Notes under the pieces: generated by a model | The model's database searches: none | Seen by the model: only the letters and a program-made list of their open reading frames with translations | Told to the model about the DNA's origin: nothing | Source: Candidatus Saccharimonadota bacterium | GTDB taxonomy: Bacteria > Patescibacteriota > Saccharimonadia > Saccharimonadales > Saccharimonadaceae | Assembly: GCA_946893605.1 (NCBI GenBank) | Contig: OX335598.1 | Span: 372,001 to 436,000, forward strand | Reading direction: 5' to 3' | Length of the DNA: 64,000 nucleotides | Shown: piece after piece, positions 48,647-55,334 of the stretch | How the letters are laid out: every line of letters starts with the position of its first letter | Numbering within the stretch: position 1 is the stretch's first letter | Translations under genes and position numbers: made by a program

Positions 48647-49213
48647 ATGACCAAAAAACTATTAGAAATCGAACGCAAACGCCAGCTAACGGGCAATATT
48701 GAAGAGCTAATCGGGCGGTTGCAAAACATCGGTTTTGAGTTAAAGAGTAATCTTCGCGAAATTGATACGTATTATTCTCGTCCTGATGTCGATTTTATGC
48801 AGACGGTTGAATGCTTGCGGATTCGCCAGCGCGATAGTTTTGCTGAGGTAACATATAAGCCAGCAACGACCGCTGTGACGCATACGGAAAATAATGTAAT
48901 CATTAAGCCCGAGACAAACCTGCCAATTCAGCCCGAAGATGCGGCAACCGCCAAGCAGCTACTGGCAAACCTCGGTATGGTGCAACTGGTCGAGGTCAAC
49001 AAGTATCGTCGCTCGTTTCAGTACTCTGACTTTCCGCAAGCAACGGTAGCCATCGACAAAATCAAAGACGCTGGGACTTTCGTGGAAGTTGAGGTTTTAT
49101 CGGATGATGAAACCAGTGCGCTGATGATGATTAGTGAAATTGAAACCAAACTCGGTCTGGATTCAATGGAAATTGTGACGCGACCTTATCGAGACATTTG
49201 TATGGGCTATTAA
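48647..49213 (+). CDS. CYTH domain phosphohydrolase/cyclase-like protein
   Basis: 188 residues. The defining ExExK motif is EIERK at residues 7-11, followed by DTYYSRPDVDF, ECLRIRQRDSFAEVTYK and VEVEVL with further metal and triphosphate-binding charges. CYTH proteins act on triphosphates (thiamine triphosphatase, tripolyphosphatase, class IV adenylate cyclase). AAAGG precedes the ATG. The 3' flank contains the left copy of the 17-bp repeat. Confidence 0.88.
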   Translation: MTKKLLEIERKRQLTGNIEELIGRLQNIGFELKSNLREIDTYYSRPDVDFMQTVECLRIRQRDSFAEVTYKPATTAVTHTENNVIIKPETNLPIQPEDAATAKQLLANLGMVQLVEVNKYRRSFQYSDFPQATVAIDKIKDAGTFVEVEVLSDDETSALMMISEIETKLGLDSMEIVTRPYRDICMGY

Positions 49214-49408: not shown

Positions 49409-49888
49409 CTACCAGATCTGTTTAGTTAATTTGTGTGTACCATTATATTGGCGTGCGAGCGGTAACTTTTCAGGAATTAATATTTTAATATCCTGTTCGA
49501 CTTGCTCCATATCGTCTGCGGCGTGCATGTAGTTGGGATAGCTCATCTGTTTTTCACGATCAAATTCACAAGGTACTGCGAATCGATCGCGAATAGCCAT
49601 CTTTACATCCATTAAAGTATCTACTGCATCAACACCAATCACACCAAAAAGTTCTCACTGTTGTACCTATCAGACGAGCCGCCCCCGAATTTTCCAAATA
49701 TCATTTAGATCTCCCTTTATATCGAATAATATTGGCTGGTGTTCTCGGAGACGCAAGTAGTCCATAAAAACATCTTTAGCCCAGAGCAGCTCTAGATCAT
49801 GCTCAATCTGTCTACGCACCTCTACTTCGCATGGACCGCCTATACCCTCTGATTTGATATATCCAAAACTTAGCTCTTTATTAGTCAC
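49409..49888 (-). CDS. Unknown island protein (frameshifted)
   Basis: About 155 residues across two frames: MTNKELSFGYIKSEGIGG, EVEVRRQIEHDLELLWAKD and LREHQPILFDIKGD, then after breaks near 49685 and 49640 GVDAVDTLMDVKMAIRDRF and ending NGTHKLTKQIW. Acidic and helical, no membrane segment, no family recognised. Its start overlaps the Nudix gene end by 8 bases, suggesting a shared function. Confidence 0.45.
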
Positions 49889-50372
49889 GAGCAGCCTCCT
49901 GGTACGCCTGTAAAATTGTTTTTAGATCCACGCTGTGGCGGAAATTTATATTATCAACCTCACTCAGATCAACCCACTCTGGCGTACCGTTAGTGTAGGT
50001 CTTCTCACTGTCAGTTATATTATCGTTATTGATTTGCCCATACAGTTGACTATGAGTGAAATACAGTTGGATTGACTGATTGGCTTGCGCCTCAGCGTTG
50101 CGCTTGAAGAAAGTAGTTGCTTGGTGAATGATTTTATCTGGCGTGATAGCCAGTCCAGTTTCCTCCTTAACTTCACGGACAATTGATTCCTCGATCGTTT
50201 CACCTTTCTCGACGCCGCCGCCAATTAGACTATAACCGTCCCATTGCCTAGTTAAAAGAATCTTATTATCCTCAATAACAACTGCATACACGCCGACGCG
50301 AATATTTAATTCGTCAACGGGAACGGTGTATTGATTGCCGAAGACGTCTTTACAGATGATGGTTTTAGTCAT
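49881..50372 (-). CDS. Nudix hydrolase
   Basis: 163 residues. The Nudix box reads GGGVEKGETIEE and then REVKEETGL, with the catalytic glutamates in place. It hydrolyses a nucleoside diphosphate linked to another group; the substrate is unknown. N-terminal CKDVFGNQYTVPV is followed by GVYAVVIEDNKILLTRQ. The position inside the island next to nucleotide-modifying proteins suggests house-cleaning of a modified nucleotide, which is an inference. AAGGAG precedes the ATG. Confidence 0.88.
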   Translation of the reverse strand: MTKTIICKDVFGNQYTVPVDELNIRVGVYAVVIEDNKILLTRQWDGYSLIGGGVEKGETIEESIVREVKEETGLAITPDKIIHQATTFFKRNAEAQANQSIQLYFTHSQLYGQINNDNITDSEKTYTNGTPEWVDLSEVDNINFRHSVDLKTILQAYQEAARD

Positions 50373-50383
50373 GAAACTGCTCC

Positions 50384-51134
50384 TTATTTATAATAATTTG
50401 TCTTATCTATTACCTTTGCATTAAAAAATCCAGCTTTTCGTTCACAACAAGCATAACATTCACCACAATGATATAATACTCCATTTTCAAATACCGGCGT
50501 CCAGCATGTCATCGTCCGCTCATCTGGAATATTATTTTCTTTTGCCCATAAAATCTCGTCGTGTTTGCTAAACGGTTTCTTGGATATTTCCTCGTCAATA
50601 TTTATCGATAGTATATTCCACTCAACTTCTTTTGTCATCTCGCAGATTGCTAAGGTGTTAATTCGATTTATCGCAACACTTGCGATACTGTCAGTTTCAA
50701 TAACACCATTGCAAATCGTTCGAACATTTCCATCAAGTGAAGCGGCATATTGTACAGCAAGCATTTGCATAATAAAGTCTCGCATCGGATAGCGATGAAC
50801 TCTGGCATATTCTTGCAATCGGTCTTTAATTTCTTTTGGAGGCACGCTTATTTTTGGCATAAACACATCATGAAATGAGGACGCCCCAAACGTTTTTTGA
50901 AAATAGTTCGTAAAAACTCAACAGACGCTAATTCTCCGTCACGATTGCGTGATCCGCGATCAATATAAACATAGAAAGCTCTATCTCATAATCTTTATTA
51001 AAACGAGCCGCTGTAATCATTGAATCGTAGCCAAATGGAAATCAAAATAACAGCCTTCTTGTTCTCTGGAAGTTTCCTGATATCCAACCGCGTTTATCTA
51101 AAAGCAATTTGTTATACATACGTAACTGATTCAT
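50384..51134 (-). CDS. QueC-like PP-loop protein (frameshifted)
   Basis: Reading across frame breaks (near 51025, 50955 and 50885), the protein begins MNQLRMYNKLL, then NKKAVILIS and GYDSMITAARF, a PP-loop ATPase motif close to SGGxDS, and ends with a zinc-type cluster TCWTPVF plus CGECYACCERKAGF, very like the C-terminus of 7-cyano-7-deazaguanine synthase QueC. The intact ORF 50384-50866 covers the C-terminal two thirds. QueC makes preQ0; relatives also act in antiphage systems and protein or nucleotide modification. No other queuosine genes are nearby, so a different substrate is likely. It may be a pseudogene. Confidence 0.6.
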
Positions 51135-51135
51135 T

Positions 51136-51867
51136 TTACATCTCTTTCGTTTTTATACGCAAAGTGAACACTTTGTGCCGCTTCATAGGTATTCTCCCAT
51201 AGATATGTACGTCCGTTACTAAACCATCAAACCTACCCGTCTCAATCTTTATAGACAGTTTTTCTCTAAAGCCTTTCGGACTTTGCTGCCTAACATCGAT
51301 ACAACAGTTAGATCGCCTGCTCCTTTTGAAAACCATCCCATGAACGCATAAACAATGTTAAGTCAAGATAATTCTTACCAAGTCTTTGGTTAACTCTAAA
51401 CTGCAATGCAGTAATACACGGTAGATAATCATTCCATGGGCTATTCAATACCGCAATATAGTCTTCATATGTCGGAAATACCATTACAGCCTTTTTTGAT
51501 TCCGGGATCTTTGCTAATCGCTCAATGACAAATTCCATCATTTTTCCTCTTTCTCTAGTCGTTTTTTGTAGCTTTTTGCACCATTACGAAAAGAAGGTGT
51601 AATGTCAAAATCTTTCATTGTATCAGAGTCAAAGACGACAGCTTTCATAGCGTCAATTTTTGCCTTGTCGCCATATTTTTTAATTAATTCATCGTCTGGA
51701 TTTGCTACGCCAGCAGTAAATCTTAAATTTCTTACAGCAAATCTACCTCTGTTTTCATCTAGCTCAAATTGACCATTCTTTAATATTGTTTCTACCATAT
51801 CAAGCCACAGCTCTCCGAGCGTTTCTCCATATACAGAATATCCAACATTTTCAACTTTTGTAATCAT
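51136..51867 (-). CDS. Thymidylate synthase family protein, possibly dCMP-type (frameshifted)
   Basis: Joined across breaks near 51540, 51315 and 51255. N-terminal YGETLGELWLDMVETIL and GRFAVRNLRFT lead to SYKKRLEKEEK, VIERLAKIPESKKAVMVF, the catalytic-Cys region YLPCITALQF and LTLFMRSWDGF. The next segment SKGAGDLTVVSML aligns without gaps to the ThyA loop whose Asn177 selects dUMP, but has Asp there, as in dCMP hydroxymethylases. The end has KIETGRFDGLVTDVHIYGR, the family's substrate His-Tyr region. First gene of the island, AGGAG before ATG. Frame breaks make activity uncertain. Confidence 0.6.
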
Positions 51868-52148: not shown

Positions 52149-53184
52149 ATGGACACTTCACAAAAAAATCGCATTATAAAAATTACCATTTGGGCGGTCT
52201 GCTCAATTGTCGTTACAGCAACCTTATTAGTCGCTGCAGCTTTCTTTTTGGCCAGCAACATCCAAGCAGTTGCAATCTTCAAGCTCTGAGAAATTGAGCT
52301 ATAACGACGCCATCGCCACTGCAAATCGTACTGTTAGTGAAGACACTTCAAATACCGATGTTAGATCAGAATGTCGATCTATTATTAAAACCCACGGCAA
52401 AAAAACCGCCAAAGCCGTTATGATGATTCACGGTGTAAGCGCATGCCCACAGCAATTTGCAGACTTGGGCGACACCTTTTTCAATGCCGGCTATAACGTC
52501 TATATTCCCCGTGTCCCCAGCCACGGTCTGACAGATAACAAACGACACGGAGAAATCACTATTCCAGCAATGGCACAATTTATGAACTCCAGCACCAGCA
52601 TAATTAGCGGTTTGGGTGATGAAACGGGAGTTGTAGGACTTTCTGGCGGCGCAAATATGGCGACTTGGATTACGCAATACAACAGCCAAACCATATCACG
52701 AGCACTACTTCTATCACCTTTTTATCAGCCTTCAGCGTCAGAAACTCCTTCCTGGAAAATCCCGCTTTTACGAAATCTTTATGGACGTAATATCTTTCCA
52801 GATTCGTTCACGGGTAGCAATTTGTCATATCGCGCTCTTGGAAAATATATAATAATCGCCAAGAACTATAAATCCGACCTAAAAGCTCCAGGACTAAAAT
52901 ACGTCGGGGTTGTAACGAGCGAAAACGACACCGCAATTGATAAAAATCTCGCAGTCAACATACCTAAGCAAATGGCTGCAGCTTCTGGCGCCAAATTCCA
53001 ATATTATTCAATTCCGGCCTCATTTGACATCGGTCACGACATTGTAGCCTTAAACCAAGACGAGGTTAAAAAGCACGCTGACAAATTATATCCGTTCTAT
53101 TTGGATATGTACGAAGGAAAACGTAAAATTAGAATCAAAATAGAAAATCACTATTTACCTCGCGCAGTTAAGATTCGCGCCTGA
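52149..53184 (+). CDS. Membrane-anchored alpha/beta hydrolase (frameshifted)
   Basis: The start MDTSQKNRIIKITIW lies 6 bases after TATAAT (52137-52142). A membrane helix (IVVTATLLVAAAFFLAS) follows, then a one-base break near 52285, and the hydrolase domain from SEKLSYNDA on. The nucleophile elbow is GLSGGAN, with an N-terminal oxyanion region MMIHGVSACPQQF and a plausible catalytic His in IGHDIVALN. It resembles lysophospholipase or carboxylesterase proteins and would act outside the membrane; a host-lipid role is inference. Its 3' end overlaps the convergent HIT gene by 34 bases. Confidence 0.8.
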
Positions 53185-53612
53185 ATTTCATCCAGCTGAG
53201 CATCGTCCATTTTTGGACCGTCAGCCGTGGTTAACCAGCCAGGATATTCCTCATAAAACGCTTGCTCGTGTGACACTGGCGAACCAATTCCCTTTGCCAA
53301 ATCGCCATGAAGCGGCATCAATTTGGCGTGCACATGCGCCACGCCCGTGCCCTCAAAAATCAGCGCTACTCGTGGGGTATCAAATGCTTTTTCCAAAATA
53401 CCAGCAACTTTTTTCACCGCCAGCATCATTTCGGAATATAAATTATCGTCCAAAGAAAATACGTAATCGCCCGGATTCTGCTTCGGAATCACCACAGTAA
53501 AACCTGGCGTATTCGGAAACGGTGTTAAAAATGCTAGGAATTTCTCATCTTCCCAAATTTTCCAAGATTTCATTTTTCCAGATACGATGTCGTCAAAAAT
53601 TGTGTGATTCAT
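53151..53612 (-). CDS. HIT family protein
   Basis: 153 residues. Nucleotide-binding hydrolase or transferase of the histidine triad type: TPFPNTPGFTVVIPK, then HVHAKLMPLH with histidines 93, 95 and 102 near the triad pattern. The residue between the second and third histidines differs from canonical HxHxHxx, so activity could be altered. Start at 53612 has AGGAG upstream, overlapping the stop of the RclA-type gene. A 232-nt copy of its 5' end lies at 55103-55334. Confidence 0.85.
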   Translation of the reverse strand: MNHTIFDDIVSGKMKSWKIWEDEKFLAFLTPFPNTPGFTVVIPKQNPGDYVFSLDDNLYSEMMLAVKKVAGILEKAFDTPRVALIFEGTGVAHVHAKLMPLHGDLAKGIGSPVSHEQAFYEEYPGWLTTADGPKMDDAQLDEIQARILTARGK

Positions 53613-53622
53613 AATTACTCCT

Positions 53623-54945
53623 TTATGCAAATAAATCGTTTAATGCCTCACTCACCGTTGGATGAGTGAATATTTGGTCACGCAGCACAGTATATGGCAG
53701 GCCATTATCCATTACAGTTTTGATAATATTAATGACTTCTGGTGAGTTACGACACAATAAACTAGCACCTAAAATTTGTTCAGTGTTTACATCAATCACC
53801 GCACGCAGCAAGCCTGTTGTAGCATTATCAACATGCAGGCGTGGAATCGCCATAGCAGGCAGCTCTTTTACAATAATTTCGCACCCCGTCGCACGCGCCT
53901 CAGCCTCTGTCATACCCACCCGACCTAGCGGCGTTTGCATAAAGACCGTGTACGGCAAGGTTTTTTGTTTGGCGCGAGTGTACAGACCGTCACCCAGCAA
54001 CTGGCTTCTCACAATCCGAAAATCGTCCAGCGACGCATAGGTAAATTGTGGCCCGCCCGTTACATCGCCCATTGCCCAAATATGCGACCGACTAGTACGA
54101 AGTGTTTCATCAACCACAATTGCCCCGCGCTCATCCGTCGCTACACCGGCAGCTGGTAAATTCAAGCTCATCGTTGCCGGGCGACGGCCCGTAGCCATCA
54201 AAACCGCATCATAACCAGCGTAATCATCATGATTTACTGTGCGAATCGTCGCAGTAGACTCACCCTCAATCGCTGTCACATCCACACTAAACACAATCTC
54301 AATACCCTGTGCCTGCAATGCTTCAGTAGCAGCCCGAGCAATTGCCGGATCTTCACGCGTAAGTAAGGCATCACCCCGCTCAAACACCGTTACTTTTGTA
54401 CCAAGTTTGGCATAAGTTGAGGCAAATTCTAACCCAATATAACCGCCACCAATGATAGCTAGCTGTTTTGGCTGCGTCATTCTATCCAGCAATTCAGTAC
54501 TGGTATACACAAACGGCTTATCAACACCTGGAATATCTGGGATGATTGATTCCGCACCGGCGTTAATAAAAATCTGCGGTGCACTAACTACTAGCTCGTC
54601 GCTACCCGCCACAACCTTCACAGTACGATCATCTACGAACGATGCCTCACCCTCAATAACGCTCACTGTTTCACGATCCGCAAGCATATGATAGTTCTTC
54701 TCATTCAACCGCGCTACCACTGTTGTCTTATGTGCCATCGCCTCATCAAAACTTTGATGATGTTCGGCTGCATTGACTAGCACCTTAGTAGGAATACAAG
54801 CAATATTAATACAGGTGCCGCCATACATCTTTGGCGACCGCTCCACTAGCGCTACCTTTTTTTCCGCATTTGCCAGCGCTACCGCCAATGTTTTGCCAGC
54901 TTTGCCAAAACCAATGATGAGTGCGTCAAATTGTTGTGTATCCAT
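53623..54945 (-). CDS. rclA: RclA-family flavoprotein disulfide reductase
   Basis: 440 residues, intact. FAD motif IIGFGKAGKTLAVALA, redox cysteines 45 and 50 in YGGTCINIACIPTK, NAD(P) motif IIGGGYIGLEFAS, IWAMGDVTGGPQFTY and the dimerisation end DQIFTHPTVSEALNDLF. These segments closely match RclA of E. coli as I recall it. Characterised relatives reduce hypothiocyanous acid, the lactoperoxidase product in saliva, or Cu(II). A very strong GGAGGAGG site precedes ATG 54945. Composition appears more G/C-rich than neighbours and both flanks carry recombination scars, so recent acquisition is likely. Confidence 0.88.
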   Translation of the reverse strand: MDTQQFDALIIGFGKAGKTLAVALANAEKKVALVERSPKMYGGTCINIACIPTKVLVNAAEHHQSFDEAMAHKTTVVARLNEKNYHMLADRETVSVIEGEASFVDDRTVKVVAGSDELVVSAPQIFINAGAESIIPDIPGVDKPFVYTSTELLDRMTQPKQLAIIGGGYIGLEFASTYAKLGTKVTVFERGDALLTREDPAIARAATEALQAQGIEIVFSVDVTAIEGESTATIRTVNHDDYAGYDAVLMATGRRPATMSLNLPAAGVATDERGAIVVDETLRTSRSHIWAMGDVTGGPQFTYASLDDFRIVRSQLLGDGLYTRAKQKTLPYTVFMQTPLGRVGMTEAEARATGCEIIVKELPAMAIPRLHVDNATTGLLRAVIDVNTEQILGASLLCRNSPEVINIIKTVMDNGLPYTVLRDQIFTHPTVSEALNDLFA

Positions 54946-55067
54946 TTTACCTCCTCCTATCTTTTTTAGCGATCTCTCTCGCTGCAACAAATTCTCTATC
55001 GGCACACAGAACTGCTTCTTTTATTACAAGTTTTTGAGCTACTACTATTATCGTGTGTAATAGCTCC

Positions 55068-55108
55068 TTAAAACTGTTCCAAAAAGTCCAACTTGCCACT
55101 TTCAAAAT
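55068..55108 (-). repeat. Duplicated 3' end of pheS
   Basis: 40 of 41 bases match 55991-56031, the last codons of pheS. It joins directly to the duplicated HIT fragment at a shared CAAAAT. Confidence 0.85.
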
Positions 55109-55334
55109 ACCAGCAACCTTCTTCACCGCCAGCATCATTTCGGAATATAAATTATCGTCCAAAGAAAATACGTAATCGCCCGGATTATGCTTCCGGAATC
55201 ACCACGGTAAAACCTGGCGTATTCGGAAACGGTGTTAAAAATGCTAGGAATTTCTCATCTTCCCAAATCTTCCAAGATTTCATTTTTCCAGATACGATGT
55301 CGTCAAAAATTGTGTGATTCATAATTACTCCTTT
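55103..55334 (-). pseudogene. Duplicated 5' fragment of the HIT gene
   Basis: About 97% identical to 53394-53624, with five substitutions and one inserted base that breaks the frame. It includes the HIT ribosome site and start codon and is preceded by a TATAAT box, but the coding part stops at the junction with the pheS fragment, giving a chimeric reading frame that is not a real protein. Confidence 0.85.

Follow-up and report, generated by a model that had tools for sequence, protein, structure and literature searches.

What might a small Patescibacteria genome do with a thymidylate-synthase-like (ThyA-like) gene directly followed by a QueC-like gene? The pair lies in a stretch of 64,000 nucleotides (the window) of a Saccharibacteria-like Patescibacterium with a single-contig genome of 0.70 Mb, elsewhere in which a canonical ThyA with DHFR is present. 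An earlier note proposed that the two genes, together with a Nudix hydrolase and a further protein, form an undescribed module that makes or uses a modified cytosine nucleotide. The present analysis gives an even chance to the reading that the window holds one copy, now decaying, of a small operon that has spread horizontally in Patescibacteria and whose two-enzyme core would make a modified pyrimidine nucleotide.

State of the locus in the window

The genes run on the minus strand in the order ThyA-like, QueC-like, Nudix. The ThyA/dCMP-hydroxymethylase-like remnant (51140..51867) is broken by about four frame changes and passes through all three frames, with LPCITALQF (bearing the catalytic Cys), RSWD and KGAGDL all legible. 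By itself this piece scores 16.7 bits, below the PF00303 cut-off of 24.3, whereas its intact relatives lie above it (27.7-34.5 bits), including two that are 74-78% identical to the window protein (31.3 and 27.7 bits); the assignment to the ThyA family and the motifs named for it earlier (LPCITALQF, RSxD and KGAGDL) are thus borne out. In the remnant of a QueC-like (PF06508) PP-loop ATP pyrophosphatase (50384..51134), about four frame changes likewise interrupt the first half. Its C-terminal 160 aa, which include PxR(N/D) and the zinc cysteines, stand in a single open frame, and the open piece at 50866-50384 matches the Pfam QueC family at 38.3 bits (cut-off 22), with the PP-loop upstream in other frames, as expected of the QueC-like protein with PP-loop and Cys cluster that had been placed here. 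The Nudix hydrolase (49881..50372, 60.5 bits), gene 3 of the operon, is intact and was also correctly recognized. The fourth protein had been counted in the set and does not belong there: it is broken (49409..49888, minus strand; two ORF pieces of 72 and 77 aa), gives no family match in Pfam, NCBIfam or PHROG and has no counterpart after the Nudix gene in the intact operon of locus L041; it is a broken passenger of the slot and not part of the conserved unit. Beyond it, an intact CYTH-domain gene (48647..49213, plus strand) lies on the strand opposite to the operon. Its membership in the operon is doubtful, and it is probably a resident neighbor, because it also occurs in a sister genome (G005) independently of the pair.

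About eight breaks were counted in the pair, all of them frame changes and with no in-frame nonsense seen, which is compatible with sequencing error or with recent decay. The earlier note proposed to correct the frames with accurate reads, but the copy in the window seems to be degraded and not simply misread. G005 lacks the ThyA-like and QueC-like genes and yet keeps the same Nudix gene (90% DNA identity), which makes decay more probable than sequencing error, and error as the sole cause is made less likely by the good ORF coverage of the remaining window. Loss in progress is thus the simpler and likelier reading. The ThyA-like gene was found in none of eight same-genus genomes. Across the flanks G005, itself a genome of this genus, is about 94% identical to the window and shares its neighboring genes, namely CYTH to one side and HIT with a flavoprotein reductase to the other, but its slot holds other genes. 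The pair is AT-rich, with a GC content of 36.5% against 44.7% for the window. In the sister genome (locus L116, 2420-5398) the slot is occupied by other genes of clean-up type, namely two further Nudix-like genes and a Maf-like gene, which suggests a hot spot for nucleotide clean-up genes. Also in the window, part of the HIT-family gene at 53151-53630 is duplicated as a fragment at 55060-55330, ahead of the next gene.

Relatives and linkage of the pair

Relatives of the ThyA-like protein were sought with the broken window protein, read through its frame changes with no base restored, in searches of related genomes and in one scan of 84,980 species; the scan was pattern-limited, and the counts are lower bounds. 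At least 16 loci were obtained, counting the window. Their hosts are Patescibacteria, except for two labeled only 'bacterium' and for L041, a MAG of about 0.9 Mb deposited under an uncultured Clostridia label. In L041 the ThyA-like (Asp), QueC-like and Nudix genes are intact and in the window order, at about 78, 69 and 62% identity, respectively; L039, a same-family relative, was deposited as Candidatus Saccharibacteria. Of 380 genomes of the phylum, about 5 carry close family members; full-length QueC-type genes number roughly 20 in these 380, which is the background for the linkage described below. A phage origin was rejected, as three pattern-limited scans of viral contigs returned no relative and the phage and plasmid matches are remote, reaching about 30% identity at most. 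Islands often adjoin tRNA genes, and in three loci a tRNA gene lies no farther than about 300 bases from the ThyA-like gene.

The neighborhood comparison proposed with the original observation supports a linked pair: a QueC-like gene is adjacent to the ThyA-like gene or one gene away in 13 of the 16 loci, spread over distinct Patescibacteria lineages and L041, on which ground a chance neighborhood was rejected. The pair is intact in about a dozen other genomes, and an overlap of a few to 20 bases between its two frames is frequent (7725 vs 7744 in L029; 8318 vs 8321 in L034). Three loci, one of them at a contig end, have the ThyA-like gene with no QueC-like gene adjacent, and some QueC-like genes of the clade stand without a ThyA-like gene (L079, L080). 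The Asp-bearing ThyA-like proteins form one group in the tree (support 86/92, and 100/100 for the four closest). The QueC-like tree likewise joins the window to L041 (100/100), and in it the N-type loci mostly fall into one group. The main groups recur in both gene trees, which suggests that the two genes move together. In two of these clusters (L036, 9261-10580; L037, 2958-4391) a second QueC-like gene is paired with HAM1.

The ThyA-like protein

The ThyA-like proteins retain the catalytic Cys, the substrate Arg/Asp and the sugar-binding His/Tyr; Cys150, Arg174, Asp177, His221 and Tyr223 are invariant in the set, and S175 is nearly so. At the column of the canonical ThyA Asn (Asn-177 in E. 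coli), a gap-free alignment (hhalign probability 98.5) places an Asp in the window, and intact relatives share the same KGAGDL, so that the residue first read from an ungapped alignment is real. Its interpretation as a dCMP-type, cytosine-reading position could apply to the window's clade but does not extend to the family, as only five of the 16 proteins carry Asp (window, L039, L040, L041 and G554) and the other 11 carry Asn. Unlike canonical ThyA, with its phosphate-site Arg-Arg pair, these proteins have Lys-Lys, or Lys-Arg in the most distant member. The ELLW motif, which carries the catalytic Glu in ThyA, is absent from 14 of 14 proteins, whose N-terminal half gives no confident profile alignment; the one-carbon chemistry may therefore differ, and an FAD-dependent dCMP enzyme is among the structural neighbors.

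The ThyA-like protein of L041 is modeled by AlphaFold with a pLDDT of 90.7, and the model matches the MilA CMP hydroxymethylase first (3e-12), followed by thymidylate synthases and the phage dCMP hydroxylase 9iqu; a ThyA/CMP-hydroxymethylase fold is thus predicted. As a precedent, the mildiomycin pathway pairs a ThyA-fold hydroxymethylase, MilA, with the N-glycosidase MilB (PMC5175136, PMC4081090), and the ribose preference of MilA is due to Lys at Arg-126' and Ala at Ser-167 (PMC5175136). The proteins described here resemble MilA in fold, in the Lys at the Arg-126 position and, in the window's clade, in the Asp at the base-reading position, and a gene of nucleoside-phosphate N-hydrolase type, kin to DNPH1, adjoins in four loci. 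However, most members carry Asn, sequence identity is about 18%, and Ser is kept where the ribose enzymes MilA and BcmA have Ala, so that the ribonucleotide-type signature is incomplete. The sugar-site signals are accordingly mixed, with Lys as in ribose-using MilA and Ser as in deoxyribose-using enzymes. To our knowledge, a QueC-like partner, a kinase or a CYTH protein has no part in the mildiomycin pathway. By sequence, the best PDB match is T4-type dCMP hydroxymethylase (E 0.0027), which shares the catalytic Cys and, with the window's clade, the Asp. However, that similarity is weak, and the present proteins differ in the Lys-Lys in place of the Arg pair, the missing ELLW, the mostly Asn base-reading position and their non-phage setting. 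Two structures known by their PDB titles, a phage dCMP hydroxylase (9iqu) and a riboflavin-dependent monooxygenase with dCMP and FAD (9iqc), are similar in size and fold (TM 0.65-0.75).

Membership in PF00303 would also be expected of a merely divergent thymidylate synthase with chance neighbors, and 4 of 13 host genomes have no other full-length ThyA or ThyX, although these assemblies are perhaps incomplete. This is a very improbable explanation, considering that the remaining nine hosts possess a separate ThyA or ThyX, and the ThyA-like protein is therefore not the housekeeping synthase there; the Lys-Lys pair, the variation between Asn and Asp and the linkage to the QueC-like gene speak against it as well.

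The QueC-like protein

The intact QueC-like proteins (about 250-303 aa) score 43-62 bits against PF06508 (cut-off 22) and keep the SGGxDS loop, PxR(N/D) and the four zinc cysteines of QueC; S32-G-G-x-D36, C210, C226 and C229 are invariant and C223 is nearly so. The AlphaFold model from L041 (pLDDT 90.5) matches QueC (2e-8) and Cap9 (6e-7), predicting a QueC/Cap9 fold, so that the structure predictions suggested earlier returned the anticipated fold for both partners. Unlike QueC, the 7-cyano-7-deazaguanine synthase, all 13 of 13 proteins lack the deazaguanine-reading YPDC motif and have YHCS, PHSS or similar instead; the Tyr and Asp of this motif hold deazaguanine in QueC and Cap9 (PMC13329287, PMC13279940). 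In addition, QueD is absent from 13 of 13 host genomes, and the hosts thus do not seem to make preQ0, though TGT is present in 10 of 15. The lost motif and the absent QueD rule out queuosine or preQ0 synthesis.

QueC-fold enzymes have recently been shown to be reused in phage defense, and Cap9 and QatC share with the present family a QueC scaffold reused outside queuosine synthesis. It could be imagined that the QueC-like protein attaches a base derived from a pyrimidine to a partner protein, in the way that deazaguanine is attached to the CD-NTase by Cap9 in type IV CBASS. A PDB profile search does place Cap9 as the best match of the QueC-like family (1.7e-9), with QatC also matching, and the scattered distribution, the tRNA-adjacent loci and the lack of the genes in sister genomes would suit an anti-phage module. 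However, in Cap9 the deazaguanine motif is intact and the partner is a CD-NTase, whereas no CD-NTase with an N-terminal glycine was seen among the neighbors here, and none of the ThyA-like and CYTH proteins in the set starts with Met-Gly, the acceptor in CBASS and Qat. QatC of qatABCD is about 400 aa long, with extensions (PMC13329287, PMC13279940); the present proteins are shorter and have a ThyA-like partner, and no qatA, qatB or qatD partner was recognized among the neighbors. As a PADLOC scan of nine proteins found no defense family besides the QueC-like proteins themselves, and as the partners are nucleotide enzymes, an anti-phage role is quite unlikely. In a published survey of QueC proteins (PMC13329287), thymidylate synthase, ThyA and CYTH go unmentioned, and no module of QueC with thymidylate synthase or CYTH was found in the open full-text literature.

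A model for a modified pyrimidine nucleotide

Beyond the pair, partner genes vary between loci. Custom profiles run over the loci place a CYTH gene downstream of the QueC-like gene in eight loci besides the window, HAM1 in four, NDK in three and a DNPH1-like gene in four, and, together with Pfam, thymidylate kinase and Nudix in several loci each; in L033 and L034 the thymidylate kinase lies between the ThyA-like and QueC-like genes. The DNPH1-like family matches DNPH1, the hydroxymethyl-dUMP N-hydrolase, in the PDB (profile E 7e-6). The linked enzyme families act on pyrimidine nucleoside phosphates, and this pyrimidine chemistry of the partners, together with the lost deazaguanine recognition, suggests that the PP-loop enzyme uses the product of the ThyA-like enzyme.

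Taken together, the pair probably constitutes an undescribed pathway to an unusual pyrimidine nucleotide, in line with the module first surmised for this locus, now that the pair recurs across loci and the predicted folds have been obtained. The model proposes that the ThyA-like enzyme would place a substituent on C5 of a pyrimidine nucleoside monophosphate, possibly of uracil type in the Asn majority and of cytosine type in the Asp clade, which includes the window. At the expense of ATP, the QueC-like enzyme would then activate a carboxyl or carbonyl on this product and join an amine or similar nucleophile to it. Kinases would raise the product to the di- or triphosphate, or the DNPH1-like enzyme would release the base, and the pyrophosphatases would remove unwanted nucleotides; in the window lineage the pathway would be in the course of being lost. 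That this amounts to a new two-enzyme chemistry, in which a 5-substituted pyrimidine nucleotide made by a ThyA fold undergoes ATP-driven, QueC-like conversion to an amide, nitrile or conjugate as a pyrimidine counterpart of the deazaguanine pathway, is put forward tentatively.

The product might alternatively be a modified dNTP that is incorporated into DNA (or RNA), as with hydroxymethyl-dCTP of T4 or in phages with hypermodified thymine, while CYTH, HAM1 and Nudix enzymes destroy the normal nucleotide. The nearness of the ThyA-like protein to T4 dCMP hydroxymethylase, the thymidylate kinase between the pair genes and the NDK and HAM1 neighbors fit such a scheme. However, it is an unlikely one: the pattern-limited scans of viral contigs yielded no relatives, no DNA polymerase, glycosylase or nuclease recurs as a partner in the neighborhoods, and the phosphate-site Lys pair is like that of ribose-using MilA and BcmA (PMC5175136). 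A nucleoside-like small molecule is somewhat more likely as the product than a base incorporated in DNA or RNA, because of the MilA fold, the DNPH1-like partner and the glycosyltransferases close to some loci. Further, the bacteria that carry the pair have small genomes and presumably scavenge nucleotides, and the pair could serve salvage or sanitation by turning a host-derived modified pyrimidine nucleotide into a usable one, for which HAM1, Nudix, HD and DNPH1-like enzymes, all of sanitation type, would be suitable companions. Such a role is rather improbable, however, as so rare a gene set would be odd for a general need and an ATP-using PP-loop enzyme suggests synthesis.

If the proposed synthesis of an unusual pyrimidine nucleotide is correct, Patescibacteria might use its product as a metabolite, a nucleic-acid mark or a defense signal. 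A QueC group without the deazaguanine motif, linked to a ThyA fold and kinases, indicates a substrate outside deazaguanine chemistry and points to a nucleotide chemistry of Patescibacteria that is directly testable with two small proteins.

Other ThyA-like genes were observed in further settings. In L026 (7366-8592) a shorter ThyA-like protein (207 aa) adjoins a DNPH1-like gene; their cluster, which looks biosynthetic, also has Nudix, aminotransferase-like, dehydrogenase-like and glycosyltransferase-like genes. In another Patescibacterium (L027, 6342-8360) a ThyA-like protein of 391 aa lies beside a deoxycytidylate-deaminase-like gene. On a Leptospira plasmid (L020, 7704-10265) a ThyA-like gene whose base-reading position holds Asp (PHD) is followed by two unknown proteins, possibly forming another nucleotide-modifying operon.
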